Shown: positions 7,433 to 62,945 of the stretch, one piece after another | Position numbering within the stretch: the stretch's first letter is position 1 | Layout: each line of letters opens with the position of its first letter | Assembly (NCBI GenBank): GCA_963971425.1 | Contig: OZ020514.1 | Span: 17,209,406 to 17,273,405 of the forward strand | DNA: 64,000 nt | DNA from: Bryoerythrophyllum caledonicum | Taxonomy: Eukaryota > Streptophyta > Bryopsida > Pottiales > Pottiaceae | Direction: 5' to 3' | Notes under the pieces: model-generated | Told to the model about the DNA's origin: nothing | The model's database searches: none | The model's input: the letters and a program-made list of their open reading frames with translations, nothing else | Position numbers and translations under genes: made by a program

Positions 7433-8185
7433 AGACAACCCTGCTTAAACAAAGCTTTCGAGTACGGCAATAGCTCCTCCGCAGACTTGCTCTTGCTCCG
7501 AAGCTATCGCGCTTCAGTGATGAATGCCTCACCGAGTTGATCTTCAAGCACCCTCATGGTTGCGGAAGAGACGTGATATTCAAGCTTAAAACGCTTTCAG
7601 TTTCCAGGAACAAAATTTTTGTTGGCATCAAAAAATGCAAGACTAGGCTTTAGTTTCTGCAACTCCCTACGGATGACGTTCTTCCTCTTGCGCCGATCGA
7701 TCCATTCTAAAGTTGTGTAGTTACTATCTAATACGCTCTTTGGTGTTTTGATGACCACCTTCGGGTAGTGCAGTCGTCGTTTTGGTCCGCTGTGGTTCAA
7801 AATGTGGTTCAACAACTTCACATGATCTGCATCAGTGAGGCTACCAAGCCACTTGGAAAACTCTCGATTCAGACCACAATCCTTCGTTGGCGTCGACTTC
7901 AGGTTGTCTTTCAATTTGATAAGGGGGTTGGTGTCAACGTCAATCAAGTCCCGTTGAGCACTTGCGGCCATCACATCTCGCTAGAGATTGAAAGTAGAAT
8001 CAAGCGACGTGATAATCTTAACCCCATTTGTGAGAATCAGCTGAGAAACTTGACTAGATTTGCTAGCATACTGTTGGTTCTTCGCAACGTCAATGAAAGC
8101 AAATCGACGTTGAATGGCCTCAATGAATTCCTACACGAGGCGCAACAATTGTGTTAGTAAAAGTGATCAATTGGTGACAAGGGTG

Positions 8186-8218
8186 TGCATATTCAGCTCG
8201 AGTTGAGCTGAATATGCA
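8186..8218. repeat. Family-1 palindrome inside the P intron
   Basis: Arms TGCATATTCAGCTC and GAGCTGAATATGCA are perfect complements around the 5-nt centre GAGTT. It lies in the probable intron of P and is identical to the copy at 9,737-9,769. Confidence 0.9.
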
Positions 8219-9736
8219 ATCGCAATCAGGATTGGTTACCTTATACGCCTTGTCGTTGGCTCTTGGAGCTCCACGGCCACCCGGCGTATTCTTCTTCTAT
8301 GGTGGTGTTGGACGACCTAGATTGGTCCATGGTATTCGTGCTAACAGGATGTTGGTCGACCACGTTGGCTTGAAGACGGACAAGTGATTGGCTCGCTTGT
8401 AGAATGCCGAGATCTTACGGAGCTTCTCTTTGTCATCAGACCATACGACAAAGCACTTCCACACGCGGAAGTGCCTCACTGTGGTCTCATCAATAGATTC
8501 ATCTTCTATCATCACTAAGCTTGCCGCCACGCTATGTTGGCCATTTATGATGTAGAACTTCCCCTTTCGAATGTCTTCCCAATCTCCATCAAGCTTCTCC
8601 TTTGTTATCGGCATTACGCAAAGCGTCTGCTTGATGGATATATCGGGCATGTGGATGAGGTAATTCATTACCGTGTCTATGCCCTTCTTCTCAAAGGCCC
8701 GAATTGTCCAATCCTCTGGTGTTGGTGTTAACTGCCGCACGTCCAAGTCCTTCTTCATGTCAGGGTCGTAGAGGAAGTAGTCTTCGCAATTTGTCCAAAA
8801 CTTATCGTATACCTCCGATGCATTCCCGTAGTCAATGGCTTCTCTGGGACGCAACTCGTGCGGCAGATTGGTGATCGCAGAGGCGATGCTTGCCTCACCG
8901 TCTGGCTTACCAACTTCTTGGTTTTTTGCACTTGATTTTAGTGCTCTTCGAGTTAAAGCCTCCGGAGCAAGTGATCGACGCTGCCTCTTCGGTGGCGTCG
9001 GGTTTGTAGACAACGACTTCCTTGGATTTGCCTTGCCAATTCGAGCCGCTGCAGTCCTCTGTCTAGTGTTACCGCCTTGACTAACGTTGCCACTCTTGGT
9101 CCTACGAGAGACCTCAACCAGAATCATCTCGGATGAGGTCTGCGAGTTTTGAAGAACCTTTATCGCCATTGCATGGAGGAGATTTGTCAACTTAGATGAC
9201 AAAGCTTTAGCGCGAAGAGGCCCACCAATGTTGTTCTTCCAATAATCTTTGTCCTGTTGTTTGAGGATGTCTCTTTTTATTGTCTCAAACAATGAGTTCT
9301 CAATACTGTCGAGAAAGGACTCAAGGCTGAAGACTTGAGTCATGCAATCGATGAGAACTGTGTACTGAAGATTGCTTTCAGTTGTCGTCTCACATTTAAC
9401 CACGAGGAACTTCTTGTGGTGGTCAAACTCGATTATCTTCTCATCCGGTGAAACGTGCAAGAATATATCCATGCCTTGATATTTGTGAGACAAAACCAGG
9501 CTGTTAGAGTGACCGATATGTTCGAACCCCCACGCCCCATGCCTCTCTGGATCTCAAAGCTGGTAGCAGTTGAGTAACTCGTGCTCCTCTCCGTCGTCGG
9601 ACTCGATTGCAATACTTGTTGGTTTATAGTATTGCTCCAGGACCTCTTGGTCGTTCATTGGATTTCTGCAATGGAAGCAGTACGTGAAGTTGACTTTTCT
9701 ATGGGTACTTAATGCGTCACAGTTTTTCCTCGATTG

Positions 9737-9769
9737 TGCATATTCAGCTCGAGTTGAGCTGAATATGCA
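9737..9769. repeat. Family-1 palindrome near the start of P
   Basis: A 33-nt copy with 14-nt perfect arms and centre GAGTT, identical base for base to 8,186-8,218. It is about 170 bp from the first unit of the phased array upstream of P. Confidence 0.9.
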
Positions 9770-9907
9770 ATACAACGATTTATTGCACAGATGTGGTTCC
9801 GTCAAGAAGTTTTAAGTCTTGTATTACAACCTGCGTGTGTTTGAAGTCATTTTTTTTATCTTCAGAATTGGAATTTCTTATAGATTTTAGATTTTTACCA
9901 TTTCTAG

Positions 9908-10381
9908 TGTACATTTAGCTTGACTCGAGCTAAATGTGCACACAAAGCCTGTTTTACCTTGCACATTCAGCTCGAGTCGAGCTGAATGTGCAGAGAAAGC
10001 TCCTTAGACTGTGCATATTCAGCTCGAGTCGAACTAAATATGCATACATAGCTGAAATTAAAATGCACATTCAGCTCGTGTAGAGCTGAATGTGCACATA
10101 ATGATCAATCATTCGCACACACACACCAATGAGCCCGAACTGCATATTCACATCGAGTCGAGCTGAATGTGTACACAAAGCTTATCATACTCTGCACATT
10201 TAGCTCGAGTCGAGCTGAATATGCAAATCTACCAAAACTGAACGTATACATTCAGCTCTACACGAGCTGAATATGCACCTCGTGATCAACCAATTGTGCA
10301 TATTGAGCTCGATTTGAGTTGAATGTGCAGCACGCTCAAGACGTGGATTGCATATTCAGCTCGAGTTGAGCTGAATATGCA
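9908..10381. repeat. Array of nine family-1 palindromes with a 52-bp step
   Basis: Units of 33 nt start at 9,908, 9,960, 10,012, 10,064, 10,141, 10,193, 10,245, 10,297 and 10,349. The step is exactly 52 bp except for one of 77 bp, so the spacers are 19 nt (one is 44). Arms follow TGCAYATTCAGCTC and its complement, with 5-nt centres, mostly GAGTC. Spacers are not unique: those at 9,993, 10,045 and 10,097 resemble those at 10,174, 10,226 and 10,278, so a block of about 181 bp was duplicated. The array lies directly upstream of the minus-strand P gene. Confidence 0.92.
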
Positions 10382-16454: not shown

Positions 16455-16715
16455 TGATGCTAATCTAAACCCTAATCCTAGATTCCAAACACTAAACTCT
16501 AAAACCCTAAACCCTAATCTTTAAATCATTAAACCCAAACAATAAACTATAAATCCTTAACCCTAAAAACTAAACCCTTAAACCTAAACCCTAAATTCTA
16601 ATCCATAAATCTAATTCTAGAATTGTCTAGTCTGAAACCCTAAACCCTATAATTTACACTTCATACCATGGACTTGCAATCCTAAATCTTAAACCCTAAA
16701 CCCTCAATGTCAAAA
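16455..16715. repeat. Degenerate interstitial telomere-like repeats
   Basis: Scattered AAACCCTA motifs, some in direct succession (CTAAACCCTAAACCCT), alternate with mutated versions over about 260 bp. The motif is the complement of the plant telomere unit TTTAGGG. The degeneration points to an old interstitial tract or a telo-box-rich repeat, not an active end. Bases 16,716-17,302 hold no supported gene. Confidence 0.65.
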
Positions 16716-17705: not shown

Positions 17706-17854
17706 TGCACATTCAGCTCGACTCGTGCTAAATGTGCATAGAACATGCTATGTATATTTTTACAAAATATATGCAGTGCACATTCAACTCGACTCGAGCT
17801 GAATATGCAGAGCATGTGTTCTACACATTCAGCTCAAGTCGAGCTGAATGTGCT
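17706..17854. repeat. Three family-1 palindromes in an intron of T
   Basis: Copies start at 17,706, 17,777 and 17,822 with arms such as GCACATTCAACTC and GAGCTGAATATGC. Centres are GACTC, GACTC and AAGTC. They lie between a putative donor near 17,490 and the acceptor at 17,983. The family matches the array at 9.9-10.4 kb, but the spacing is irregular (71 and 45 bp). Confidence 0.85.
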
Positions 17855-17983: not shown

Positions 17984-18309
17984 GCCAAGATGGACACTTC
18001 AACCGGTGCCTCAATCGACAATGATTTTGGTTTGTTAAGTGACAACTTGTCTTTCCACGATCCAGTAGATGCTGATTTGATGGAATTCGAAGTTCTCCCA
18101 AGGCATTCTTGGGTTGGTAAGATAGTCAAAATTAAAAACTTGTCCAGTGTTACAATTGCCATTGGAATACTTCGTAACCTTCACACCACGGCTATTCCTG
18201 GGACTGATGCTCCATTAGGTGATACTCACGTTGCCATTCAGGTCTCGAGGACATTAGTTGAAGATGAAGCACCGGACAAATGGCGTTATTGTGTTAAGAT
18301 TTGGCCTTT
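17984..18309 (+). pseudogene. N-terminal domain of transposase T, element 1 (5' of the LTR insertion)
   Basis: After the TTTGCAG acceptor the frame encodes an Asp-rich lead and a beta-rich domain with AIGILRNLHTT, PGTDAPLGDTHVAIQVS and CVKIWP. It resembles the domain often found in plant En/Spm-type transposase proteins (AxGxV, then GxxLGxxxVxVxV, then a WP). Element 3 has the same arrangement near 50.2-50.4 kb (YAGVGVIDECSPKG, FLHVRVKSV). The frame breaks at the end of the LTR-type unit's target site and resumes at 22,721 with VGQVFYNSVNLL, so the two parts were one gene before insertion. Confidence 0.6.
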
Positions 18310-18696
18310 TGTCGTACCCCAAATTTTAAAATTTTTGTAATTAGTTATTTGGGAAGGGTATTAGCGTACCACCTTATAAATTTTAGAGGTAAGTAGCCTC
18401 CTAGTAGTGACTCTTAGGAAGAATTAGAATAGGAAAGAAATAGGACCCTGGGGAAATGCTAAAGTAGACAAGTAGTGGTTTAATACCAGGTACTAACACC
18501 CTAGCCTAGAGGGTAATTAAAAGGCTTGGAGGAGGAGGCTCGGCCGTGTTAAGTTTGCAAGGCCACGGGGGTTGGGAGACCTCATCCCAAAGAGGCCCTA
18601 CCGGCAACGGGAAGGAAGGTCCACCGGCACCGGCAAGGAAGCCCCACTGGCAACATCAAGGAAGCTCACATAGGCCCTAGTATAAGCAGCCGGGCA

Positions 18697-22720: not shown

Positions 22721-25253
22721 CCTGTTGGTCAAGTTTTCTATAATAGTGTAAATCTCTTGCATCACCAGCAGCGTGATACTTACAATTCTGTAATGGCAAT
22801 GAGAACCTAGTCTCTTGGAGAGAGGACTCGCTCTTATGAAAGTTCATCTAGGATCCCTTCAACCATGGTTTCAACAAAATCATCATTTCTCCTCTCTGGC
22901 GAATCTATCAACTCTAATGCTGGAAACCGTTGTTGCTCCAGGAGTTGTGTTCAACGCTTCCCACGATTGAATATTAAGGTATTGAGGATGAGGATGTATT
23001 TTGGAACCTCCGTTCAATTTAAAAGGCATATGAAGCTAGATGTTCACGGACAGTTTCATGTGGACAATAACGGTAGAAATGTGGCAACCATTGAGGGCAT
23101 TGATGTGTGCGCAGCTGTCTGGCAGCACATCATGGGCCTCAGTGAAACCTCGTTCTATGAATATGCCAAGGATGCAGCGGCTGGTGTAGTCGTGCAACCG
23201 CATGGTAATACTGGGAAACGGAAACCTAGAAATCACACAGTAGTCGCTACCGCAACATTACGTGTCATCCTTAATAGGAATGCTGACCACATGTCCTACA
23301 AGTCCCACATCTTGCCTTTGGGTGAGACATCTGTGGCCAAAGTTCTTCGCGCAAATTTCAAGTGGAAAGATCAAATTCCTGCAATTGATGCCCATTTAGT
23401 TGATTGCGGGCTTTCCCAAATTTCCATTTCAAGGCTGAGTAAGATCAGGCAGGTCCATTTTTCCGATTACAATGCAAAACAACATGGGGATAACTTTGCA
23501 CATTGTTCAACGTGTAATAAGTACCATTCCCATCGGAGGTTGCAGCAGCCTAGAAGAGAAGCTGTGCTATTATGGCTGTGGAGGTTGAATCTCCATTTGG
23601 ATTCAACATGGGCTCATCGAGAGTTGTATTATTCCAACCGTTACCGCTTTCAAGAGTTGCCGGATGAATGTATTACGATTATGCACGACAAGATGGATCA
23701 CTCGAAGACTGCATCTCCTCTCCTCTCTCACAAGACGAAACATTTGGATGGTCTGATGAAGTTGCCCATCTCTATTATTGGAATGCTTGCACATGGTCAT
23801 GGCGATGTTCGTTATGCTCATTATGGCTTGGACATTTATCCACATGATGTCAACTATATAGTGGGCTCTTTTGCTAGATTGTTGCGAGATTTAGAACAAC
23901 CTCCAAAGACATCGTTCCGACAATTATTTTAGGATTCGGGGAGAACTGCATTGTTTCGAGCTATTTTGCAAGGAGCTTCAGATACTTGTGTCCCATTCCT
24001 CCGCGCCGCACTTAAGTCTCTAGCTACAACAAAACTTTTGTTGCCTACATTGCATGTGCAAATGGACAATGAGGTGAGTGACAACAAAAATAGATATGTA
24101 TTCTGCTTTTGCTCTCTTCTTGTTGCAAAGGGTATCTTCCAAGAGGTTTATGTTAATTTCATGCTTGTTGGCCACACACATGATGACATTGATGCATTAT
24201 TTGGTCAATGGAGTATGGCTTTGAAGGAGAGTTTTCCCACGATCCCTTTGCTTATAAGATCATTTATGGAGAACAAAAGTGTGCCAACAATCCCTCACTT
24301 GATTGAAGAAGTCCCGGACTTCAAGTCCTTTATTAGTGAAGGTATTGTAGGTGGAGACGAAGCATTGCAGGGCCACACAAAGGCTCACCAATTCAAATTC
24401 TTTATTGACTCCAATGGATGTCCCATGATGAAATACAAGATTCTTTTTCATCAAGATGATTGGCTTCCTAGAGAAGGGGGTGGGATCAAATTGTAGAAGG
24501 AGGATTCAAATGGGAGGTCTTTGTGGCCACGTGGAGAACCACCTTCATTGCAGCCACATGCAATGCGCAATCTTTCTGAAGTGATTAAAGGTCTTTCTGG
24601 ATTCATTTCATATTGGGAGCGTCAAGCACGTGAGGATCATACAGGTGAATATTGAAGGCGATATGAGCCTTTGAGCTACTATTGGCGGACAGTGAGAGAG
24701 TCACTTAGTCTACCAATGGACTTGCCTACCTTTCTACAGGATGCTTTTGGGCCTTCTAGTTGTATTGATCAGACAATGGAGGACCAATTCACTAGTATGG
24801 GCGCTGTTCGTGAGGAGCATGATGAGGATGACCACTTTGTTGGGCAGAGTCGAGATAGGCCAGCCCCTTCTTTTCGGATTAATCGAGACATTTACTCAGG
24901 CTATTTTGTTGCATTAAGACCCTGTGATGGAAATGAACGTCCTGTTTGGATTGCACAAGCTCTCTCGGGCCCTAATTCGGATCTGGAAAGGCCTAATTCT
25001 ATCAAAATATAGTACTTCCGGCCCACTTCACGCGATGCAAATGTCCAAAGATGCTATAATGGATGGGCCTCTTCCAACGGTCTACAATGGACAATTGATG
25101 ACGAGCAACTTCCGCAATGGGAGGATACGGGATCTCTGTTGACTGCATGGAAGTCTAGAAGTAGGAGTGAATTTCTTGTTGTGAAGATACCTAGAAATCA
25201 AGTTCAAATCATTCAAGATTGTTTGATCAGGGATGCCGAGCTGTCTTCTTCGT
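22721..25253 (+). pseudogene. Transposase T of element 1 (DUF7869-like)
   Basis: A single frame continues from 22,721 to a terminal TAA near 25,253, with five internal stops (TAG at about 22,806, 23,930, 24,494 and 25,010; TGA at about 24,654) and no frameshift. The order is: Cys cluster (NRCCSRSCVQRF), a region with DVCAAVWQHIMGLS, FSDYNAKQHGDNFAHC, then TIMHDKMDHSKTASP, LHVQMDNEVSDNKNRYVF and GHTHDDIDALFG. The C-terminal domain has GYFVALRPCDGNERPVWIA and VVKIPRNQVQ. These match the plant family I know as DUF7869, with three acidic sites (MDHSK, MDNxxxDNKN, GHTHDDID) like a DDE-type transposase. Element 3 holds a homologue. It is interrupted upstream by LTR-type unit a and is followed by family-1 palindromes. 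Confidence 0.7.
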
Positions 25254-25724: not shown

Positions 25725-25919
25725 CTTCAATTTCTTTCTAGCCTGATTTTAAATTGAAAATAATTCCGCACCTCCCATTTTAGTGGACACCAAACTCGAA
25801 GATAGTATTCAAAGGTTACTATGCAAATCACTAAACATTTGCATATTTAGGTTAGCTCAAGCTTTTCATATTATTTTGGAAGGCTCCTAATCTCTCAATA
25901 TAATGAATATGGTGTTCTA

Positions 25920-37206: not shown

Positions 37207-37283
37207 TCTCATGCTCGCCTCTCCATTACTGTTTTCTGTTGGTATCGAGTTTAACTCATTATTTTTTGTCTTCTCTTTTGTAG

Positions 37284-46062: not shown

Positions 46063-46081
46063 CTCGGGGGGCAGCCGACCT
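46063..46081. repeat. Family-3 palindrome, left edge of element 3
   Basis: A partly decayed copy (CTCGGGGGGCAGCCGACC) of the GTCGGC-GGGCA-GCCGAC family. It is the leftmost clear copy I find. Confidence 0.5.
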
Positions 46082-47633: not shown

Positions 47634-47654
47634 CATCGGCGGGCCGCCGGCGGA
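47634..47654. repeat. Family-3 palindrome in an intron of T
   Basis: CATCGGC, GGGCC, GCCGGCGG: a GC-rich inverted repeat between two exons of T. Confidence 0.75.
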
Positions 47655-48927
47655 GAAGGTAAACGACGAAGGTGGCAAAAGTCGAAGGGAGATGAGAATA
47701 GGAGCATTTTCGCCTTGAATGGCTTACCTGGAGGAAGCCAAGATGAATCAGTCGCACACTTCTTATATCTCATGACCGGCCATCCAGCGTCATCTCCTTC
47801 CTCCTCCACGTAAAACTTGAATAGGTGCATCTCTCCGAGTCCCACAATCTTGTTACTGCCGTCATGATGATATCCAGCAATATAACTCTTAAAATCCGCA
47901 ACCTCTTGGACAAGTTTTGGAATGAACGCGATAGTCTTTTGCGAGTCCATGAAGGCTTTCATGAGGTCAACCAACAGTAAGTATTCTTCCGTTTGATGAG
48001 TTTCAAAAGATATCTAAAACGTGCGTCAATATCCTCATGAGTGTGGCCAAAAATCAAGAATTCCACAGTAACCTCCTTGAAGATTTTTCTAGCTGTGAGA
48101 AGCAAACAAAACGCCATGAGGAACTGATTCTTGTTATCCTTGGCGGAGTTATCAAGTTGGAGAAACAACTTCCGAGGAAGCGGGACTTGCGGTCTACCGG
48201 GAGGACCATGCGGAAATGGATCTCCTTTAGATTCTGGAATCGAGGACATACATTAGGACTTCCCATGAAGTAAAGCATCAAAGAAAGGATTCAGGGGTGG
48301 ACACGTGAATAGCTCCTTTGCCTCTCACATGGGGCGCCTCTCTAATGCTCTTAGAACACGGAAAAGTGAAGAGATGGTGAAATTCAAGTCCCCTGGCCAT
48401 AACAACGTCGAGTAATGAGCCTAGACACCGTCACCGTGTCCATGTGTGAGCATGCCGGTACATGAAATCAAAATCTGACCAAGCCCGGTGGTAGCCTTGG
48501 TAATCCTCTGCATTCTAGGAATGGCCGTCTTGGAGGTATCCATCTTGTAATGAAATATGCAAAGGAACTCAGACGGGTATTGAATAGATTGAGTCGACCA
48601 GTCGGAATAAACATTTATGCATGCCCTATGGTAGTTTAGGTGCCTGTTTCTGTCATCCGTAAGTCCTTGCTACTCGTCTGACCCGCGAGGATATTTTGCG
48701 ATAAACTCCACTAGGAAGTCGCACTCTGTGCACCTGGAGAAGTTGTTGCCCACAGACTTTGCTTCTACATTCCTGAAGAACCTCTTCTTCATGTTACTCA
48801 CCGCGGATTGCGAAATCAGCTTGGCATTGCATTTGACGTTTACCTAGATGAGACATTTTCAAGGATCATTCAATAATATAGAAAGACGATGGTGTCAAAG
48901 GTATGCCTAGTAGGCAATGAATGAGTT

Positions 48928-48949
48928 CCGTCGGCGAGCCGTTGACGGA
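48928..48949. repeat. Family-3 palindrome in an intron of T
   Basis: CCGTCGGC and GTTGACGG around GAGCC, in the non-coding gap (about 48,850-49,020) between the core exons of T. Confidence 0.75.
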
Positions 48950-50702
48950 GCTCGCTAAAGCGACAGAGAAGATAGACCATGCCAAATACAAAGATAGACG
49001 AAAGTGAAGACAATACTTACAAAGTTGGCAATGTCACGTAAGTGATTCCAATTCATGGCCGCTTAAAGGACCTTCAACGCGGCGACCCTCTTGTTTCCGA
49101 TGACACGGAACTCATTTGGCATCCAATCCGCACTATCGTTGATAATGTTGGATATGGTACCACGAGCCTGATAGTGTGAGGCCTAGGCCGCATAATGCGT
49201 GCGTTAATGTGGTTGCCATTCGCGCGACCGATCTTTGAATCATATTTGTAGTTGTAGTATGCGGACTTTGACACACCGTGAATGTTGTACCAAGCGACTT
49301 CACAAACATGGACACCCATAAGGGTGATGTATAATTTTTGGAATCCAAGAATTTGGTGAAGCTGGTCTGCAACAGCATAGGCCATTTCGCGTTGTTGTTC
49401 GAAGCTTGACGCGTAGTACTTCCTTCCAATCTTGCGACTGTCTTCCCAACGAAATAATTGGCAGCATCGTTTCTTACAACACCATTTTGCGCTAACAAGG
49501 CGGCACTCATCTGGGTCCTGAAGGCACTAGAACTTGGAGACCGACAAATCAACCTTCGGCAAAAGCTTCCAACAAACACCCTTGTAAGGATCCTTAGGCA
49601 CACCCTAAGCCCGTCATCCTTGCATGGAGCTTGACTATGCGTTGAGCAGAATGTAAGGTACTCAAAAGAAAGTGGACCACCTTCAAGGCGCTTGTGAGTT
49701 AATTGCTAGCGCATCATTGTCATCTGAAGATCTTTGTCCTCTAAGACAAAGAGGACCCCAATATTAGTGTCTCAAAAAATCTTTGAATTGCGTGCCTCAT
49801 GTGGCAAGCACACTTAGAACATGGCACGCCCAATAAAGGCCAAGTTGTCATCTAGGAGCTGACAGTACTTGTTCCCCCATTGTGGTCGGTCTGGGAATGA
49901 ATTCGGATCACATAAACCATCGTGGATAGCGGATGGATTCTCAGAAGAGTGATAATTATGTTGTCGGAGGCCGCCGATGAGATATCTTTGTCACTTCCAA
50001 CGGCCATTTCAGTCTCCGATTCGGATCCCTCCATACAATTATAGGGCCCATGATTATTATTGTTGTTATATACCCTATCGGAACGGTTGTCGTCGTCCGA
50101 TGCTTTAATGTCAGTATCGCTCAATGTAGAGTCTACCCCCAGGGCATCATCAGAGCCGACATCAAGTGGAAAGGAACGAACCCGATAGCCACTCCATAGG
50201 ACTAGGTAGCCCATGGAATTGTCGAGAGCGCCGATGGAAAGAATCTCACAATGTGTGGGATGGCCGATGTATTTGGGATTGACAGATTTAACTCTGACAT
50301 GCAGAAAGAAGCTGTGAGGAATGAAAAATCCCTTCGACATACCCTTCGGTGAGCATTCGTCGATGACTCCAACTCCTGCATAACATCTCTGATTGCAGCT
50401 GACATCAAGTAGGACCACCTCTATGCCATTGCAAAGGTCCAGAAACTCTTGGATGGGCTTCAAGTTATGAACTTAGAGAGAAGGTTTCTCCGCAGGCTCC
50501 TCGATAAGTTCATCGATGTCAGCGTAAGGCCTAAGATCAGCGGCCTCCCAGTTGATCGACCGACCTTCGTAGTCCCGCAACATGGAAACGCCATCCACAG
50601 GAAATGGAATGGGCATCTCCAGTGCATCGGACACTTCAATAACCTTCACACGTATAATCCATGGGTCCCTAAGAACAACCCTCTTGACCATCGCCCTACC
50701 TG

Positions 50703-52743
50703 CAAAGTAGAGGTCGGAATGAGTGAGAGCAACAACACCTCTACGGGGCTTTCATCATCCAGACTTCCAGTTCCTAATGAACAACACCATGGGTTCAGGA
50801 TCCATGTTGACGTCAGTGATATGAAATCACTTGACACAAAGGATAAGGGAATGGCTCATACAATGATTTTGTTGACAGCCCGCCGAAGAGGGTGGCTCTG
50901 AAATCTCAAAGTTGATGAACCTGACGAACAACCACACCAGTCCCTAAATTAGCTTCAGAGTTGTTGGGCAACGGGCCTTGTAAACCATGCGGTCGGCTGC
51001 CTGTCGACAACTGAATGTTACACGTAACGTCTAGCATGTGAACGATGTAACAGGCATCCGCCGAGTATATATTATCATCCGCCGACGGACTTTGGAACAG
51101 AAAACAAAATTGGTGGACACATAGTTAGTAGTACTTGATTTGTAAAGAGTAATTTAATTTAATTAACTACATGATACATGACAGTGAATAACTAAGCATA
51201 TTTAGGTGAAGGAGTGAAATAAAAAAAGGACCCATGCTCGACCACTGATAACGGACTTGTGCATGACCAGATATTTGGACTCGTGACGAAAGGACTCTAA
51301 GAGAATTAGCACCAATTGCAAGCGTGAGAAGGCAGAGCATTGAATAGGAGGTGTGGGAGTCCTGAAATGACGAGGGAGTCCCAAGGGTCGAGTTCATATC
51401 CTCACCATCATGCAAACTTTATGGCGCACGAACTTCAAATTTAAAATTAGCCGCCAAAATCAATCAACAACACCCGCTCAAGGGCTGTCGAGAGCGTGTC
51501 AAATTTTGCAGGTACAAAATGGAACAAGGTGTAGAGATGAAATCAAATCAGTCAAAGCGACATCGTAGGTATAGGACCCTATACCCTAGGCCAAATGATA
51601 GTTGAGGCGACATTAATGATGTCACTTCAATTCCAGGTATCATGGCCCCAAAACCCTAGTTTCTATATTAATATCTGAGACGACACTTCAAGATGGCATG
51701 TCTCTTGGGAATTGATACTTGGATCAGGCTTAACACTCAAGCATGAAGTCTCCGCTGCTTGTCATCCTTCCAATGAAGATTGAACAGCTGCGACGGTCCA
51801 TCGGATTCGAGTACGAAACCCTGTAGTCACCCAATTTTGGTCATTTGTAATCGTGCTCTTCCTAAATTTGCGTTCTTGCTTAGTTAAGCACGATTACGGC
51901 TTTAAGCTTAGAGTTTGAGTCCATCCGCCGATCATCACCAGCCGACGGTTGTCGGAGGCTAGTAGAAGCGTTTCAGCACAAGCCATCAGCCGAGGAGTAA
52001 TTCCCACCCGCCGTCAAAATGGCAACAATAGAGAGGTACGTATATCATCACCGTCGATGGCCAGCCGACGGATTTCAAGTTCCGTATTAGAGATGCCCTT
52101 TTAGTCTATGGTGTTTCGTCGGCGGCCCTCCGATGGATGTTGTATTCAGTGTAGTTAAATTTATTGTTGTATTTGAACTTTCGTACAGAAGTGATCACAA
52201 GGGGATGTAGTCAGGTTTTAGAGTGAATACGTCATAGGGTCTTCAAGAATGTAATTTTGTGATACAGATTTGACTGTGTTCGTTGGCGGCCCACTGACAA
52301 ATGATGAGTTGGTAGAACTCACTGTGGTCGTTGGCAGCCTGCGAACGAAGTCTATGGCAGGTGGTCTGATAAACGTCTTCCTTTATGTCGCGCACGACTG
52401 TAATTCCAAATAAGCCGAAGTGGCTCGTCGGTAGTGCTGCGGACCTCGAAGTGGACGTGGGATGGCCGGCTGATAGCAATCCACGAGTCACATGTGAAGT
52501 TCACCCACAGTTAACGTCGTGAGGCATCACATGGAGAAAGGAGGTGACTGCCGAGTTGGGTATCAACGGGAACCACAACTCTAAAACGTTTGTGGGTGGG
52601 CCTTGTGTCCGTGCTTGACATGAAGGAGGACCTAGAGGACTAGTCAAAAGTGCGACTCCTAATTCAGGTGAAGGTAAAAATGGCTGACAAAACCTGGGCA
52701 TCATCCCAGTTCAAATTTCATGGCTGACTTGCTGTCAAGAGCT
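50703..52743. other. Divergent T/P spacer rich in decayed family-3 palindromes
   Basis: About 2 kb between the diverging T and P genes. It carries at least six family-3 palindromes or remnants, near 50,992, 51,090, 51,927, 52,051, 52,117, 52,281 and 52,329. Short frames on both strands show no domain. By position the missing N-terminal half of P should lie here, but I cannot recover a GQH motif. Confidence 0.5.
52051..52136. repeat. Two neighbouring family-3 palindromes
   Basis: CCGTCGATGGCCAGCCGACGG-type copy at 52,051-52,071 (arms CCGTCG and CGACGG) and a copy at 52,117-52,136 (arms CGTCGG and CCGATG, centre CGGCCCT). The second is nearly identical to 54,461-54,478. Confidence 0.75.
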
Positions 52744-54411
52744 ATGCATCACTGCTCAGAAGAGCGGGATGTAGTTCATCGACGTGACTTCTGAAGACAT
52801 GAAAGATTTGCTTACCTGTTTTGGAGAAGCGAAAGACCTCAGGGACGCGGAGAACTCCAGGGCCGGGATCATGACGGTTTCAAAGTCTAAGACGGTGAGG
52901 AAGCCTAGGAACTCCTGGAAAGCGGCTAGCGACGCTCTCACTGAAGTTGCTGGAACTCTCGACACCGGAGAGTCGAGTTTGAAGGTAGTCAAGAAGAGGG
53001 CGTCAAAGAAGGAGACAAAGGTGAAATTAAATCATTGATTATGTTTCGTCGACGGGCAGCTGACAACATTGTGATTGAGCTCATGTAAATGTCATCTTTA
53101 TCATTTTACAGGAGCTCTACAAGGAATACCTTGCAACACTGTTGGAGAAGGACTCCAAGACGGACACGTTGAAGCTGCCGCTTGCCTTTGCACCAGACAA
53201 ATTTTACAACAAGTGGCAGGAAGTATTCGACGGATGGGATCGGGGCACCTTGATTGGTGAGGATGGGAGGAAGCCCCAAAACATCCTTAGAATTCCTCAA
53301 CAGGACCTCACCCTCCACGACCTTCAACACATTCTCGCCCTCCGGGACGAGGAATCCATGAAGCTTGCTCATGAAATCCTCGCGAAAAAGGTATACTCGA
53401 AGGAAACCGGGGGGCACAACAAGGATGCGGAAGGAGTTTTGCTCAAATCTTGGCGTCAGGATAAGAAGATGGAATACATCATCAAGAACAAGCTCATGTT
53501 GATGTACCAGAAGTATCTGTTGAAGAAGGCTGGCGATAACACCTACTCACCTTGGCCGGTTGAAGAATACATGCAGCTAGCTGAGGAGAAGGACATCAGC
53601 GACGAAACCATCATGAACATCAGACGCGAGCTGGAGCATAGTGATCCGGGGAAGGCCTACCTCAAAGGGAGGTACAACGGGATTACTCCAAGTACCACCT
53701 CAGCTCCAACGGAGTTCCATGCGGCATTATTGAAGTATTCCCTCAACTACAACAATGTCGTAGATGAGTGTACTGTCCATCACGAAGTTCGAGTTGCGCA
53801 GGAGCTTGACAACGTCGTGAGCTAGATCGACCAACCCGGACTCTTCATTCTTGAGAAGGCGGCGCTCGAGATGTTCATTGTATTTGGCTTTGATAAGTGC
53901 GGGGTTCCGATCTATTGCAACAAAGATCGGCTCAAGGCTGTTGTTGAGAGGGTATTGCGGGGTGAGGGGATGAAAGGGAACTTTTCGCCCCTTCAGTCTT
54001 CATCACAAAAGACGAGTCCTATTTTGTTATTGAGACTAAATGTCGTTCGAAGAAGTTGGATTGCGCAGTCCACACTATTCGCTACCTTCCAGACTCCAGC
54101 GGTAAATTCACTCCCTCCGCCATGGATGAGAGATCCATTGTGCATGTCGGCATCCTCTTCAACCAGCCCAAAGCTCCATGGGACCGCCTGCGTCAGTTCC
54201 AAAAGGTAATTGGATTGACAAAGCCTCTCAGTCCATTCTATGATGACGCTGCCTCGGCCTCGCCTGATAGTTGGGCTAGAGATGAATGCCATCCAAGCTT
54301 AGGGTTGCTCTCATCAATTTTGCAACCCACACTAGTGAAGGGCGACTCAAGCTTGACCATCTTCAACACTTGGGGTGGAGGCAACGTGACTGCATTGGCC
54401 TTGGTAAGTCA
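52744..54411 (+). pseudogene. Gene P of element 3
   Basis: An exon ending near 53,022 (EDMKDLLTCFGEAKDL; basic tail KVVKKRASKKETK) is followed by an intron (GTGAAA to TTTTACAG, about 53,023-53,111) with a family-3 palindrome. The next exon is long and open to 53,825 (ELYKEYLATLLEKD, FYNKWQEVFDGWDRG, LTLHDLQHILALRDEES, AALLKYSLNYNNVVDECTV), then a TAG and FILEKAALEMFIVFGFDK. A frame change near 54,000 leads to KLDCAVHTIRYLPDSSGKF and VHVGILFNQPKAPWDRLRQF. The donor GTAAGT is near 54,405. It aligns with element 2 at LLKxxLNY and the block after it. The N-terminal GQH region was not found. Best-preserved P exon in the window. Confidence 0.6.
53047..53066. repeat. Family-3 palindrome in the P intron
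   Basis: CGTCGAC and GCTGACAA around GGGCA. It lies within an intron of about 90 bp between well-defined GT and AG signals. Confidence 0.75.
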
Positions 54412-54460
54412 CCTCTCCTTCATCCATTCATTCCTTCTTTCCTCCATCTTCTCGTGTCAA

Positions 54461-54478
54461 TCGGCGGCCCTCCGATGA
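54461..54478. repeat. Family-3 palindrome in the second P intron
   Basis: TCGGCGGCCCTCCGATGA, downstream of the GTAAGT donor at about 54,405. It is almost the same as the copy at 52,117. Confidence 0.75.
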
Positions 54479-54530
54479 GACAACTTTCATATTGATCATC
54501 GACCGAGACTGTTTGCCCAACAGCGACACA

Positions 54531-55579
54531 AAGCGACAGTGATCGAATTTGTTCGTGAGGAGGCGGAGGTTGTTGTCGCGATAGAGCGAGTGCAGGCTAT
54601 GTCCTTCTCACCAGAGAGAGGTCACTCACTTGCGCTATCACTTCCAACTAAGCCCACTGTGGAACCCAATGAGATGGTTACATTGACTGACACTGACCAG
54701 GATTCAGAGAATGGGACCGAGATGGGTGACGATGCGATGGACGACAACTTTTTCCTCGGAAACGTGCAGAACAATGGGCTGCTCACAACAGCCGACTTAG
54801 GTGTTCGTCTCGATGAAGCACACCTGATATGGCCTCAAAAGGGAGGAAAGGCACCAACTGTGGTGCTACCAAAGGTGGAGCCGCAGCGAAATGACTGTCC
54901 CCCTGCACCAAGCGGGATGACTGTCCCCTTGTTTGCACAGCTTGTGGATGAAACCGTCGTGCGCTCACAAGGTGCCTTCGTCCCTCCCCAACCTGTGACC
55001 TCCATCGACCCTAGAATCGGCGGTCCGCCGAAGCCGCCTGCACCAAGCCAAGTTGTATGTGGTGGGCCTGTACCGCATGAGAATCCTTCGAGTTCTTCAC
55101 AGCCAAGCGCGTCCACTACTCCAAAATCCGGCGATGTTCTACATCTTGCATCGGTGCCAACAATGGTGAGTAAGAAGAAGAAACCGAATGTGAGGATTAT
55201 TCCTCCAAATCGGAGTACTACATTGCGGCTTCCGAAATCAGTGGAGGCCATACTCCCTAGAGTTCCGCGCCCACCGAGCCACTGCAAGAGAAGTAACGGA
55301 GCCATTTGCAAAACAGCAAGGCATCGTCGGAAGAAGGTGGTGTTTCTTTGCGGGTATTGTCATCGAGGTGCAATTACAAGAACAGCAAGGAGGTGCGATC
55401 TCGGAAGCGGTCGCCTCTGCCTCTAAAAAAGGGATTGCGAAAGTCAAAGAAGGGGGGTAGCGGTGGTTCGACCCCAAGAGAACTCTCGGTGTGCCCTGAC
55501 TCTGCTGATCATCCCAATACGAGGCTTTCGCCTACTGCTTCTTCTATGAGGCAAGATACCGGCAATACATCCGGAGGTT
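54531..55579 (+). pseudogene. Pro/Ser-rich linker region, element 3
   Basis: A 295-codon frame (54,539-55,426) is acidic at the start (TLTDTDQDSENGTEMGDD) and then rich in Pro and Ser, with a basic part (SKKKKPNVRIIPPNRS). A frame change near 55,310-55,430 gives the likely end, LPLKKGLRKSKKGGSGGST. It takes the same place between P and HAD as 37,284-38,880 in element 2. It may be the disordered tail of P with nuclear signals. No enzymatic motif is visible. Confidence 0.4.
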
Positions 55580-55736
55580 AGTCACGAGATAGTGTAACTA
55601 GGAGATTTTACTTGTAGTTTAGCACACTACCTTTCTAATAAATGTACTTTATCACGTGAATTCAAAGCTCCTTTTCCATGGTTGTTCTTCAGAGTTCGCA
55701 GTCTATTCTAAGAGTGTGTTTTCATGTTCCACTTCT

Positions 55737-55757
55737 CAGTTGGCTGGCCGCCGACTG
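55737..55757. repeat. Family-3 palindrome upstream of HAD copy 1
   Basis: CAGTTGGC and GCCGACTG surround TGGCC, between the linker region and the first HAD copy. Confidence 0.7.
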
Positions 55758-55799
55758 TATATCTTGTTGCTTCCATATTTCTATCAATTAGCAATTCAT

Positions 55800-56615
55800 C
55801 CGGATATTCCTCCTGCTGCTCTTTCAACTCCAGCAGTTGACGAAGAAGGAGCGGATCGAGAAACGGAGGCATTTGAGCACAACATTCAGGTGGGCAGATA
55901 ACCACTCAATAACTATTTCCTTTCCCTCCAAGTAAACGGTTTGTTACACGCCCTGGATATTGACAAGGACGAGTCGTTGTATAGCAAGATCCGGCCACGC
56001 ATGGTTGAGTTTCTTAACTACTGCGTTACGAACTTTAGTATTGTGATCTGGAGTTCGGAGAATCCAGATAGGCATGCCCATGAAATGAAATCCCTTAGGG
56101 ATGCATGTCCCTACATTAAAAGGCTTGGTTATATTTTTGATTAGTCGTACTGCGACGTGGCAAGGTTTGGTATTGGGGGTCAGAAACTCTACCTGTAGAG
56201 GCTGTCTACGTTTTTCTTGAGTCCCTCGGTGCTAAAAGGAACTGAAGCTAATAGCGGCAACACCCTGTTGATTGACATTTCTCCTTTTACGAATGTCTAG
56301 AACAGCCCATATAATGCCATCCATCCGGATTCCTTCACCATGGATTCAGTTGAGACCTCTACGAATGAGTCCTTTGATCTCTTCAAGGTCTCAAAATTCC
56401 TTGAAGCCATGAAAGTGTCGGGCATGCTTGTACCCTTGTATACCGCAGTTGCAGCTTGCCTTTCCTTGATGAAAGAATTGGTTGTGCCTTTTAAAAGTCC
56501 AAGAAAGATAGGCATTTGCCTCGTAGAAAAAAACAAAATGTCCACTGCCAAGGCCGTCACCCCTAGAATCTTTCGCCTCCTACCAAGTGATTCAAAATGG
56601 GAGCAATACATATAG
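55800..56615 (+). pseudogene. HAD (FCP1-like) copy 1, element 3
   Basis: The frame opens with AVDEEGADRETEAFE, followed by a stop, and then FLSLQVNGLL in the place of motif I, where the nucleophile Asp is replaced. FSIVIWSSENPDRHA (motif II region) follows, then SYCDVARFGIGGQKLYL, NTLLIDISPFTNV and NSPYNAIHP. TAG stops occur near 56,142, 56,195 and 56,298. Copy 2 lies directly downstream and shares every block, so this is a tandem duplication. With motif I changed it is unlikely to be a phosphatase, even apart from the stops. Confidence 0.55.
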
Positions 56616-56663
56616 TCGTATCCAAGCAATAGGCATCCACGTCCTGGTACTACTTTGAACTTG

Positions 56664-56684
56664 TTGTCGGCGGGCAACCAACGC
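56664..56684. repeat. Family-3 palindrome between HAD copies 1 and 2
   Basis: GTTGTCGGC and ACCAACG around GGGCA. The spacer that follows (to the CTCTAG acceptor near 56,852) resembles the one after copy 2, including AATAATCAC and ACTTATTGTAT. Confidence 0.65.
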
Positions 56685-56852
56685 TTGCAAAATCCATGTT
56701 GTAATTCACGCTTGTATAAATCTACAAAAATAAAGATTGTCTCCAACAATTCTCTATGGTTCTTATTCAAAATATATGTCTACATAATAATCACAATGTC
56801 CAGCGCACATATTTTATACTTATTGTATCTATGTCATCGATTGTTGCCTCTA

Positions 56853-57514
56853 GGTGCCCCACATTGTCGATGGGTCTCAAGCGGAGGGAGATTCCATCCA
56901 GAAGCATCATGAGGTGCCAACTGTGAAGGTCAATCACTACTTCCTTGTCCTAGGTGTAAACGGTTTGTTGATCGCAAAGAATATAGGCAGGGACGGAAAG
57001 TGGCATACCAAATTCCGGCCAAAGTTGGCAGAATTTATCAACTCTTGCGTGGATAACTTCCCAGTTGTGCTTTGGAGTAGCAAAAGTCAACCTAAGCTCG
57101 CTGCTCAATTGGTAGCCCTTAGAGGCCATTGCCCGGTTCTTAGAGTAGTCAAACACGTATACGATAATTCCTACTGTGATGTAGCTAAGAATCTGGTAGG
57201 AAATCGGAAGGTTCACCTTATGAGATTGTCTAAATTGTTTTTTAGCCGAGAGGCAATGTTAGGATTTGGCGCCAATAGTCAGAACACCCTTTTGCTTGAC
57301 GATGGTTCTTACAGGAATGTCAGGAATAGTCCTCTAAATGCAATGCATCTGATGACATTCACCCTAGAGTCAATGGAGTTGGACAAGAACGTCGTTCTTC
57401 CCGGGGTCGTAAAATACCTTTCCGCTTTGTTAGACTCAGGCTTGCCTCTATCCAAATTTAATTGGAGGAATCCTAGCTTTGGATGCCCTCGACTCTCCCC
57501 CAATGATTCACAGT
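56853..57514 (+). CDS. HAD (FCP1-like) copy 2, element 3
   Basis: The open frame follows a TTGCCTCTAG acceptor. Blocks in order: VPHIVDGSQAEGDS, HYFLVLGVNGLL (motif I; the nucleophile Asp is Gly), KFRPKLAEFINSCVDNF, VVLWSSKSQPKLA, VYDNSYCDVAKNLVGN, NTLLLDDGSYRNVRN and SPLNAMHLMTFTLES. FCP1-like HAD enzymes need the first Asp of DxDxT, so this protein is probably a pseudophosphatase used for binding, if it is expressed. It is the best-preserved frame of the three HAD copies in element 3. The stop at 57,514 may instead lie past a missed splice, since a family-3 palindrome and a further exon follow. Confidence 0.55.
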
Positions 57515-57581
57515 GAGGGGACTTTGTTCTGGCGGACTCGAGCAGTAGGCATCCTCCTTGTATGGTTGCATAGTAGTTCGG

Positions 57582-57603
57582 CGTCGGCGGGCAACCGTTG
57601 CCG
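57582..57603. repeat. Family-3 palindrome after HAD copy 2
   Basis: CGTCGGC and ACCGTTGCCGA around GGGCA, in a spacer or intron like the one at 56,664. Confidence 0.7.
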
Positions 57604-57748
57604 AAATTGCCCAATTTTGCCAGGCTTTGACATTCATGTCTGTAACACCATTTTCCTACGGAATAAAATCCCTCACAATAATCACCGCCTCCCTTGCACA
57701 TGGCTCATTACTTATTGTATGCATTTGAATCGACTTTTTCCTTCAAGT

Positions 57749-58057
57749 GGAATGTCTTGACGAGCACATGGAGGAGCTGGTTCGGATTGCTAAGAACCTG
57801 GTCATTCTATTACTGGATGACAACTCACTAGAGAGACCAAGTCGTCACCCGATCGACGGCTCGTAGTCAACGGCTTCCGTCCCCAAAATTCGTCCTACCC
57901 ACCACTTGGGTATGGAAGATGACGATCGAGACTTTGCACCATCACCGCTGGAGGAGGTGGGGCCCGAATGTGTGCACCGTGTTCTTATCGAATCCGTCGC
58001 GGACCACGGTATCAACGAAGTAGACAACAACCAAGCGTTTGCCTCTGCCAGAGCTTA
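57749..58057 (+). pseudogene. Exon following HAD copy 2, acidic tail
   Basis: After a possible CTTCAAG acceptor the frame reads ECLDEHMEELVRIAKNLV, then after a TAG a Pro/Asp-rich stretch (GMEDDDRDFAPSPLEE) ending at a TAG near 58,057. It may be the C-terminal tail of HAD copy 2 or the lead into copy 3, from which it is now separated by LTR-type unit d. Confidence 0.35.
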
Positions 58058-59099
58058 GCCTCGAGCGATCAGAGTAGTCGGCGGACTGCTGTCGTACCAC
58101 GAATTTTTTAATTTTGTTAGTTAGTTAGTTAGTTAGGGATCTTAAATATGACTAGTTAGATAGATATAGGAATTAGCCCTAGAGGGTAGAAGTCAGCTAG
58201 GGTTACTCACTTTTGGGCCAAAAAAATATACCCGAAAGTATATTTTTTTGGACAAAAAAACTTTATTTTGCCCAATTTGATGGGAAGAAAAGGTTTTTCT
58301 TCAAAAAAAAGTATGTTTCAGGATAGATCTATGCTTGATGTATGTGATTGGATAAGAAATCAAAGAAAAAATCAACATTGAGTCCTATTTTGGGAGCCTT
58401 GAAGAAATATTTTGTTTTTTAGCAATATAAGTGTAAATAAGTTTCCGATCTAGAATTTTCAACTATAATATATGAACACATTATGGCGTGGATGTGTCCC
58501 AAAACTTTTGAAGTATTTGACTTCTTAGAATACTCAAAACATGTATATTTGGCAAATGTCATATACTTGTGACAGGTATGTACTGATGATAGATATACCT
58601 ATATTGGCCAAACCGTAAGTCAGAACTCAACATTTTTGGAGTTCCTAGACTTTAAATTAAGGCAACTATCACATTCCATCAATAGAATTCCAAGATCAAT
58701 CCCACATTTGCACTATGCAGCAAAAGAAGGTTCGTGACTCTTTCTAAAACCATTTGTGACACTATAAATATACCACCTTAGTGGACTTTCACCCTAGACT
58801 AGTATTAACCTTTAAGGTAGATTAGAGTTAAGAAAGTTAGAAGGTATTTCAAAACCCTTAGAGTGGATAAAAAGTAGTCTAGGACCCAATCCTAGCCGGA
58901 GTGGAATAAGGAGCCCGGGAGGGGAAAACTCGAAGCTCAATAGTTGGAGCGGAGTGCAAGAAGCCCGGAGAAAAATAACTTGAAGCTCAACAGCTGGAGG
59001 GGAGTATGAGGAGCTCGGAGGGAAAGAACTCGGAGATAACAACTGAAGCCTGAAGGAAACTTCTACGGCCCAAGCCTGGACTTCTTATAGGATTAAAAC

Positions 59100-60420: not shown

Positions 60421-60798
60421 TTCAGCTTGGATGAGAGCTTGGAAGGGAGCTCGGATATGCAGAAGAGGACGACCACCACCGCCACGGCAAGGAAGGCAAG
60501 CTCGGATAGGCAAGGGAGAAGGACCACCACCACAAAGGAGAAGAAAATGAGCCTGGAACGGGAAGGAGAGGACAAGATCGAACCAGGGAGGAGAGGACGT
60601 CCGGGCCAGCCCGGACTCTTAGAGATCAAGACGAGGAGCTCCATTGCTGGAGAAGTGGTCCGGGCCAGCCCGGACTCGTGGGGATCAAGACAAAGAGCAC
60701 TTGCGGCAGCCGCACCCACCCCGACTTCAAGCCAAAGTTCCACGAAGCGCAAGAGGAGAGAGGAGCGGAAGAAACTCGAGGAGCTGGCCCGGAAGTAG
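60322..60798 (+). CDS. C-terminal remnant of gag-like protein, unit d
   Basis: A 158-codon frame with a Thr/Arg/Lys-rich body ends in KRKRREERKKLEELARK, nearly the same as the end of the gag-like gene in unit a. The conserved gag-like blocks (FHPEKP and neighbours) are absent, so this copy keeps only the C-terminal basic tail behind expanded repeats. A capsid role is therefore excluded for this copy. Confidence 0.35.
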   Translation: MRSLSASTQQGNVKNVVNWHVQMQNIEDMLPRRFSLDESLEGSSDMQKRTTTTATARKASSDRQGRRTTTTKEKKMSLEREGEDKIEPGRRGRPGQPGLLEIKTRSSIAGEVVRASPDSWGSRQRALAAAAPTPTSSQSSTKRKRREERKKLEELARK

Positions 60799-62056
60799 GC
60801 CAGGATCTTGGTTTGTAGGTCACTGTTCAGTCCGGGATTTGGCCCCCGATTGACTTTGATTTTGACTTGGTTTTGCCTTGGAACTTGTATAATAAGTGAC
60901 CTCTGATGGTGCACATCGTGGGGAGTGGCAGCACCGCCGCCAAGAGTAGTTAATGTCACTGTTTTTAGTTAGAAGGTATTGTTTGAGTTTGGACTCTTGT
61001 GTGAGTCCTTGGCAGTATAAGAGAGGAGTCTCGTGGCCTCTGTCTTCACTGCTTGATGTGTGTACTTGCTTTTAGTTTAATTCTAAACCTACTCTCTCAG
61101 AAAACCTTCGACGGTTGGAGAGCTCGGATTCTATATGACTGAGTACCATCTCAAGTAGTCCACTCCTCAAGTCCATACTAACCGTCGAGTCATTGTTTCC
61201 TTGTTCCATCAAGTAGAGTTAGTCCGGGTGGATGGGAATAACTGGTGAGATGGTTAGATTGTTAGTTTGGGCGTGACTCTAACTCTGACCCCTTATGATT
61301 GTTTCCTTGTTCCATCAAGTAGAGTTAGTCCGGGTGGATGGGAATAACATGTGAGATTATAACTGGTTAGGGGAGGACGAGGGGGGAGTGATGGGTGCGG
61401 AAGGAGTCTTGATATGTCTTGCATGACCGGTCGGCGGCAGGATGTCATTGATTATGAAGATGTACCCTGGATCCCGGATGCATCAACCTTTGGTCGGATA
61501 GGTTGATCCATAGGAGCATTACACACCATCAACCCTTCATGTTGAGGACGGAGTAGACTGGCTTGACCCAAGGGCAGTAAGCCCAGACCGACTCTAACAG
61601 CTCGGATTATCTTGAGAGAAGAAAGGAGATCCAACTAACCCCTTTGCGAGGTGAACATCGGAGTAATATGAGGAGGACTTTGTTCCCTGAAGAAAAGGAG
61701 TAGGAATCGGGTATCCCCAAGGCTAATAGCTAGGCGAGCCGACTACGTACTATTCCTTTAGCTGATTCTGAGGTGAAGGAAGGTCTAACAACTTGGATGG
61801 TAGTTAAACCCTGTACTTGCCACAAGAGTAGTATTTGTCCTTAAGGCCCAAGCCTTATCCCCTCTTACGGGGGAAACCCAGTGACACCACAACCCTCCCA
61901 AGTTAGCGAGTAGGAGTGATTGAAGAAACTGTGAGAAAGAAGTGTCGTTTACTAAAATCTATTTGAGTCCGTGAACCGTCGTTCATGGTGATAAAACACT
62001 CTCCGGATACGTAAGTATCTCGGATGTCTATAATGTACATAGTTGTAAAGTCCATG

Positions 62057-62202
62057 TGGGATCCGGGCCGTGTAGGATCCGGGCCATGTAGGATCCAGGC
62101 CATGTAGGATCCGGGCCATGTACGATCCGGGCCATGTAGGATCCGGGCCATGTAAGATCCGGACCATGTAGGATCCGAGCCATGTACGATCCGGGCCATG
62201 TA
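62057..62202. repeat. 16-bp minisatellite in unit d
   Basis: About nine units of GGATCCGGGCCATGTA with single changes. The flanks match those of the unrelated 40-bp minisatellite in unit a. The reverse frames with repeated HGPDPTWPGSYM are artefacts of this repeat. Confidence 0.9.
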
Positions 62203-62415
62203 AAGCACTTGGGTGGGGCGGTTGGTGTAATTACCATTCACACCCTGTGATCTAAACCCTTCTCTCCTTTCTTTTGATGTATCTATTGTATATTTGACAT
62301 TGTACAGATCGTGGCTTGTTGTTAGTCGTAGTTCTCGGTGACTCTCTGTGGGAACGATTACCTTAAGGGTATCTTTGTGTTAAGATGTGAATACTTGCTA
62401 ACGCGTACTACGACA

Positions 62416-62945
62416 ACTGCCGACCGCTACATCTACCCCATACCCGGCTGCTAGCGTGAGCTCCAAAGTTGTTCCAAGGAACATTTAGGTAGATCCTTCA
62501 AGATACTACCTTGTCCTAGAAGTTAGAGAGCTTCTAATGGTTGAACGATATGATTATCAAGGGAAAAGATAAGAAGCCCCATTATCATCACAAACCTAGG
62601 TCGGGTCTTCTTGAATTCTTGACGTTCTGCCAGTCCAACTTCGGATTGGCATTCTCGTCCACCGAGAAACACAAGCCCATGATCAAACACATGGGTTACT
62701 TGCGCAAGGTGTACCCTGACCTACGTAAGGACATCCGAGAGATGACCAATGCCTATTGTGATATCTTTGCCTCGGTGAATCCCAAAACAATGAAGCGTGA
62801 CATTTTGATGAAGCGGCTTGCTCGCCTTTTTTGAGATAGACGCTATCTTATCGGGCCAGACGCTAATAAACGGAATACACTTCTGATCGATCATTATCCC
62901 TTCCGAAATATCCTCAACGATCCTTTTAATGCAGTTGTGGGAAGT
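62416..62945 (+). pseudogene. HAD (FCP1-like) copy 3, element 3
   Basis: Coding resumes after unit d: PRSGLLEFLTFCQSNFG, LAFSSTEKHKPMIKHM (in the place of VVLWSSK), then NAYCDIFASVNPKTMKRDIL, a TGA near 62,832, and NTLLIDHYPFRNILNDPFNA. The order and the NTLLID-x2-P-x2-N block match copies 1 and 2. Motif I is not recognisable upstream. The copy is cut by LTR-type unit c at 62,946. It shows that element 3 continues across unit d. Confidence 0.6.

Follow-up and report, generated by a model that had tools for sequence, protein, structure and literature searches.

Three decayed elements in the window

The stretch of moss DNA analysed here, a 64-kb window (C1:17209406-17273405), holds three decayed mobile elements, each with a single family of palindromes (dyads) and with remnants of genes for a protein P, a transposase-like DUF7869 protein T or a NIF-like phosphatase (HAD). 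The consensus dyads, all centred on a single C or G (S), are TTCAGCTCGA-S-TCGAGCTGAA for family 1 (f1), TTATCCTCGA-S-TCGAGGATAA for family 2 (f2, about 21 bp) and GTCGGCGG-S-CCGCCGAC for family 3 (f3); the full f1 dyad extends to 33 bp, TGCAYATTCAGCTCGA-S-TCGAGCTGAATRTGCA. Being of odd length with one central base, they do not have the five-base spacer given in the original prediction. That the families differ in sequence held in so far as each element has one family, but f1 and f2 have both an 11-bp core (CTCGASTCGAG) and a terminal repeat in common and are therefore graded variants; f3 has only the single-base centre in common with them.

Three families in three non-overlapping ranges had been expected, and counts against shuffled sequence confirmed this. 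With up to two mismatches, the pattern first proposed for family 1 matched 20 times in the window (shuffle mean 1.95, largest 6), 16 times at 8194-10373, 17714-17846 and 25337-25604, the four strays, each with two mismatches, lying at 53.7 and 59.1-59.3 kb. The family 2 pattern matched four times, at 35.6-38.7 kb (shuffle mean 0.18), and the family 3 pattern 12 times, never exactly, at 46.06-58.09 kb (shuffle mean 0.89). Our fuller consensuses were counted against 40 blockwise dinucleotide shuffles, the largest shuffle count being 1 for each family. They gave 18 f1 sites, all at 8.19-25.72 kb (shuffle mean 0.05), and seven f2 sites (shuffle mean 0.12), six at 35.6-40.4 kb and the seventh a five-mismatch overlap with an f1 site at 25459. 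The 16 f3 sites, all at 46.06-58.09 kb (shuffle mean 0.35), are a partly circular count, since that consensus was built from the 12 pattern sites, whose own count is not circular. De novo detection in the window returned 25 dyads scoring at least 9 and recovered f1 and f2; at this threshold it missed f3, whose copies are too decayed. Our examination of f3 is confined to the window.

Element 1 carries f1. P exon 1 (8300-9553, reverse strand), a 418-residue frame with 80 homologs, is 87% identical to a full-length copy described below (copy A); part of exon 2, with two internal stops, was located at 7546-8034 (reverse strand) by tblastn with the corresponding part of element 2 (35779-36285) and is 89% identical to copy A over 7600-7980. 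By consensus count, one palindrome lies in the P intron (8192-8212), others upstream of P at 9743-10375 (one at 9743-9763 and a nine-site array at 9914-10375, mostly with 52-bp spacing), three upstream of T (17712-17848) and four between T and the element end (25335-25718, the last with five mismatches). T, on the forward strand, is represented by an N-terminal part at 17990-18340 (55% to moss T proteins over 17996-18310 in tblastn) and by the remainder at 22811-25171 (DUF7869, PF25273, by Pfam, 291 homologs and tblastn; one TAG at 23930-23932). The T-side terminal inverted repeat (25889-25916, reverse strand) has one mismatch in 28 to copies A and B, and element 1 is the same element as these copies, with about 4.4 kb of other sequence separating the two parts of T. 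A search for terminal repeats did not find its P-side end in the window. Several imperfect f1 sites (8192, 9743 and 10355 in the window; also in L051 and L055) show a C-to-T (or G-to-A) change at a core CpG, a pattern suggestive of methylated, deaminating sites.

Element 2 carries f2. The end of P exon 1 (35313-35585, forward strand) is 79% identical to the P of L003 and L006 over 35328-35585, the sequence upstream of it being copia-like (rve domain in 34928-35563), and the start of exon 2 follows at 35779-36285 (forward strand; 78% to L003, 31% to element 1). The f2 palindromes at 35601-38678 begin at 35601, 37081, 37185 and 38658, with weaker sites at 38463 and 40359. HAD fragments at 39386-40078 (forward strand) were identified by tblastn to copy A (31-41%) and L001, and the last 16 bp of the HAD-side terminal repeat (41630-41657, reverse strand) are identical to the repeat of element 1. 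In element 3, pattern and consensus counts place 16 imperfect sites of GTCGGCGGSCCGCCGAC at 46063-58093, one of them (48930) within the stretch aligned to T. This T, a DUF7869 homolog, occupies 46908-49508 (reverse strand; 22-41% to other T, in pieces), and two HAD pieces lie at 55845-57513 (forward strand; Pfam PF03031 for 56854-57513, tblastn between both pieces). The terminal repeat search found no ends of element 3 in the window. As to the homologous genes noted for every range, a recognisable P was found in elements 1 and 2 but not in element 3, where T and HAD are clear.

Also present are a further NIF-type phosphatase fragment at 62541-62936, outside the three palindrome ranges and away from any site of the three families, remnants of a hAT-type transposase at 3817-6510 (reverse strand; DUF659 and hAT dimerisation domain) and a degenerate plant-telomere-like CCCTAAA array at 16465-16614.

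Full-length copies and the anatomy of the element

A search for P in the moss's own assembly (437,360,962 bp, 894 contigs) gave at least 92 matches, many of them open and near-identical; this is a lower bound, 91 of 1490 first-look candidates having been scored. Among matches with three or more stops, 21 of 23 lie on C1 (65,181,171 bp), the home of the window and a chromosome on which old copies may persist through low recombination; it is perhaps a sex chromosome. Two full copies, A (on C15; 22,698 bp, from AACACCATATTC to GAATATGGTGTT) and B (on C7; 23,010 bp), align end to end in two joined pieces at 98.7% and 99.6%. Both are bounded by 28-bp terminal repeats and flanked by a 4-bp target duplication, TTGA for A and TTAA for B. 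In copy A, T lies on the left strand (8158-5378) and, about 12 kb on, P runs rightward (exon 1 near 20.0-21.3 kb, exon 2 reaching about 22.9 kb), followed by the NIF-type phosphatase (Pfam NIF, E 8e-19) and the end. With up to three mismatches, there are 19 palindromes in copy A and 24 in copy B, past the 3' end of T, in the T 5' flank, upstream of P, in P introns and near the phosphatase; none of the 19 in copy A falls inside a recognised exon. The T 5' flank holds a 34-bp tandem, with two sites in copy A and seven in copy B. In many of the P copies L010-L033 the central bases are all G or all C, making the dyads directional, perhaps as a result of tandem duplication.

T and P are divergent in the f2 lineage also. 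An f2 relative from the assembly, E (C1:16264200-16280199), has P on one strand (70% to the P of L006), T on the other, and 21 f2 sites with up to two mismatches and no f1 site; the fetched stretch stops inside T and showed no ends, so that E is not established as complete.

Genome-wide spread and short elements

The exact 17-bp f1 sequence occurs at 797 places in the genome, the exact 19-bp f2 sequence at 867, and the reversed-pattern controls nowhere. For the first 50 f1 places listed, a listed terminal repeat or P match is no more than 5 kb away in 46 cases and no more than 20 kb away in 48, where random places give means of 1.1 and 3.9. The 25-bp terminal repeat has 826 exact occurrences (408 + 418; control 0), in part as closely spaced inverted pairs, and we fetched 20 of the 22 such pairs listed in the first half of C1. 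These gene-less elements measure 162-163 or 236-237 bp; 19 of the 20 have a 4-bp duplication, and 19 an f1 palindrome with up to two mismatches (12 exact). The 237-bp form matches the left 93 bp of the element, palindrome-bearing DNA from 0.43 kb in, and the right end; since the 163- and 237-bp forms have their ends in common, they may have one origin. The palindrome belonged to the founders of these short families.

Retention of the terminal repeats together with one palindrome is what would be expected if the dyads were binding sites for T, or a subterminal synapsis signal for transposition, with P unrelated to them. Several sites lie 0.2-0.6 kb from the T-side end, and A, B and E, the three copies with an identified T, all carry sites, which agrees with that explanation. 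Most sites, however, are remote from the ends, being placed upstream of P or within its introns, and a short form could retain a subterminal palindrome merely through its nearness to the end. We regard this explanation as unlikely, albeit the strongest of the alternatives.

Matching of palindrome and P between lineages

The pattern of one family per element extends to related elements in the same genome and on independent contigs. L001 and L002, with P 46-48% identical to that of element 1, have f1, and L003, 78% identical to element 2 in P exon 2, has f2. (These three are CADCWO01 contigs; the cyanobacterial bin AVDCRST_MAG81 evidently contains moss transposon DNA, and bin AVDCRST_MAG94, the source of P0004, may likewise contain moss DNA.) With up to one mismatch, all 42 P-bearing sequence sets hold exactly one family (330 f1, 24 f2 and no f3 sites), at most 37 of the sets being independent, as L004-L006 are repeats of L001-L003 and two of the short loci form part of A and B. 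Neither an even spread over the genome nor a mixture of families within single elements was seen when looked for, in f1 and f2.

Half-sites derived de novo, read outward from the centre, are TCGAGCTGAATATGCA in alpha, TCGAGCTAAAGTG in beta, TCGAGCTGATTTT in L007 (two sites), TCGAGCTGAATnTG in L001 and L002, and TCGAGGATAAAT in L003. When lineages are represented once per 85% P identity (six in all), half-site distance follows P distance with r = 0.87, a value reached by four of the 720 label permutations. The full 16 sets, many of which are near-identical, give r = 0.80, and none of 5000 permutations reaches it. Elements 2 and 3, which have no comparable P domain, and the later-fetched copy E are omitted from this comparison. 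The original proposal that palindrome and reader evolve together is upheld to this extent: change in the palindrome tracks change in P.

A single family per element could also arise by tandem multiplication of a sequence within each lineage and its later copying, with no co-evolving reader. The families are nested by descent, and near-identical copies do differ in tandem number (two against seven of the 34-bp unit), as such a process would predict. The word is nevertheless intact, comparing the sites alone, between L001 or L002 and own-genome copies whose P is 46-59% identical, and it occurs in readable intron starts of proteins down to about 32% identical to the P of element 1 (P0047). Preservation across such distant P is unexpected for unselected DNA, and we consider common descent alone improbable.

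The intron starts just mentioned come from database open reading frames, in which translation beyond the P splice donor spells the palindrome directly. In frames extending at least 12 residues past the donor, the f1 spelling occurs in 16 of 35 group 1 proteins and the f2 spelling in six of nine group 2 proteins (one of the six, P0202, being the query's own record); in none of these proteins is the other kind found, or both. Group 1 was collected with an f1-type query and group 2 with an f2-type query. Of the 96 proteins in the full examination, 18 lacked an anchor, 14 lacked a donor and in 20 the tail was too short. Perfect dyads, several directly after the splice donor of P, might suggest hairpins acting in RNA, as splicing signals or triggers of small RNAs, rather than sites in DNA. 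Sites also lie upstream of P and T, beyond T and in the gene-less 163-bp elements, however, and arms separated by one base leave no loop unless pairs open, so that we give this explanation very little credence.

The proteins P and T

In the AlphaFold2 model, residues 265-391 (approximately) of the exon 1 frame of element 1 adopt a ParB-type N-domain fold, as judged by Foldseek and VIA-align, with a predicted local distance difference test score mostly above 80, and P is thus predicted to hold a domain of the ParB/Noc/KorB fold. Its homologs have conserved NGQHS and YNR-NH stretches. The end of exon 2 looks methyltransferase-like by eye only; searches of exon 2 against Pfam, NCBIfam and PDB sequences gave no methyltransferase. 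The mobile proteins of the window match those of mosses: among the T homologs, some carry the names Ceratodon purpureus and Physcomitrium patens, and a single P homolog is assigned to Physcomitrium patens.

A proposed mechanism

We think it rather probable that these are giant Sola1-like moss transposons whose P reads the palindromes of its own lineage and acts in cis, and it is with moderate confidence, from sequence comparison, that we name P as the reader. Each range in the window would then be a decayed copy of such a transposon. The palindromes, observed across promoter-side DNA, introns and subterminal DNA, would serve as the element's own recognition sites, at which P perhaps loads as ParB does at parS, recognising only the palindrome of its lineage. 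Acting in cis, P would most likely keep its own copies accessible and expressed despite silencing, or license them for T. With P, T and the sites all carried by the same element, palindrome and reader would diverge together, change beginning in the outer arms and reaching the core next to the central base last. A more specific, tentative version, which we hold to be possible but somewhat doubtful, is a ParB-parS-like self-recognition: P would load on all copies and on the gene-less derivatives, spread over kilobases and mark them as self, the mark being protection from silencing or a licence to transpose, and the palindrome would shift from the outside inward as readers split into lineages that no longer cross-react.

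Several observations weigh against this interpretation. T is linked to the same sites and could itself be the reader, and the co-divergence may be co-inheritance without selection. The six lineages are few, and it is L003 that supplies the largest distances. Among the 42 sets f1 predominates, since a single f1-type P was the query that found most of them, and the independent f2 sets are L003 and E only. The intron-start spellings had been noticed in these same reading-frame tails before they were counted, and the count is a description rather than a blind test. In 18 short-element copies the 33-bp dyad shows 0.015 differences per site in both the 163- and the 237-bp form, and its 17-bp core 0.025 and 0.029, the remaining sequence having 0.018 (163 bp) and 0.045 (237 bp); the dyad is hardly better conserved than its surroundings, so that constraint after insertion is not evident. 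None of seven isolated f2 sites fell in a short element bearing terminal inverted repeats, and P was not found in element 3, where the sole tblastn match is at chance level (E 0.097). The nucleotide-binding motif of ParB contains an arginine and is followed by a helix-turn-helix; P carries NGQHS at the place of this motif, and no helix-turn-helix was identified in it, only part of P having been modelled. Foldseek gave no match of P at E 0.001 or better, and P has no sequence-profile match to ParB (no Pfam family above cut-off, no PDB sequence at E ≤ 1).

Taken as a whole, the pattern is real and strong, and would be that of giant ParB-bearing transposons with a VANC-like matching of motif and reader. 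ParB-like proteins of giant eukaryotic transposons have been noted before, the literature passages concerned naming no target. What is new here are the cognate-looking sites, their matching by lineage and the short elements. The moss elements supply likely targets, in hundreds of copies and for at least two well-separated reader lineages in one genome, with gene-less derivatives that keep one site. Recognition of self DNA by a selfish element, and the splitting of its specificity into lineages, thereby become directly testable.

Comparison with known systems

Sola1 transposons have terminal inverted repeats and a 4-bp target-site duplication. The moss elements have both (28-bp repeats; the duplication in both full copies and in 19 of the 20 short elements), and Sola1-like is the best reading of them, on duplication and repeats; T is assigned as DUF7869 only. 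Bacterial ParB, Noc and KorB bind palindromic sites, and the moss system resembles theirs in its ParB-type domain fold and in palindromes scattered over the element; it differs in that P has no sequence-profile similarity, a changed nucleotide motif and no identified helix-turn-helix, and belongs to a eukaryotic transposon. Maize En/Spm has CACTA ends, a 3-bp duplication and subterminal repeats associated with TNPA. It is similar in having an accessory protein for many short element-internal sites, as P may be, but the moss sites run through introns too.

A review table lists a Sola1 element in Physcomitrella (PMC9033089). In a survey of the ParB fold, sulfiredoxin is called the commonest eukaryotic representative, and the main text has no words starting with 'transpos' or 'plant' (PMC12704722). 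Closer to our elements is Sola1-1_Ec32 of Ectocarpus, of 21.5 kb, with a protein combining ParB-like and DNA methyltransferase parts on the strand opposite the transposase; its authors, who also cite similar algal proteins, suggest that such proteins bind the element that encodes them and alter it epigenetically (PMC12477816). A giant DNA transposon of some 21-23 kb with a ParB-like accessory protein opposite the transposase is thus common to both, whereas the passages on the Ectocarpus element give no recognition site (PMC12477816). P exon 2, in turn, is methyltransferase-like by eye only, and the moss element adds a NIF phosphatase.

The nearest precedent for the action of P, and its closest working analogue, would be VANC of the Arabidopsis VANDAL elements. 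VANDAL elements have a Mutator-type transposase and a 9-bp target duplication, whereas the moss elements have T and 4-bp duplications. VANC carries DUF1985/DUF287, neither of which appeared in Pfam searches at E ≤ 10 with ten P homologs and P exon 2 of copy A. The VANDAL21 motifs are YAGTATTAC/T, not dyads (PMC5735166). The element-encoded VANC binds short motifs in the non-coding parts of its own element and induces loss of DNA methylation (PMC5735166). These motifs lie in introns and upstream non-coding DNA, are tandem-multiplied and differ between related elements, and motif-reader co-evolution has been proposed for them (PMC5735166). The claim that no transposon group had been described with such a pattern consequently falls, as VANDAL/VANC has lineage-specific motifs and a matching reader (PMC5735166). 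Lineage-specific, tandem-multiplied motifs in non-coding parts are equally a feature of the moss elements, which, if our interpretation is true, would join VANC as a second and independent example of a motif evolving together with its reader.

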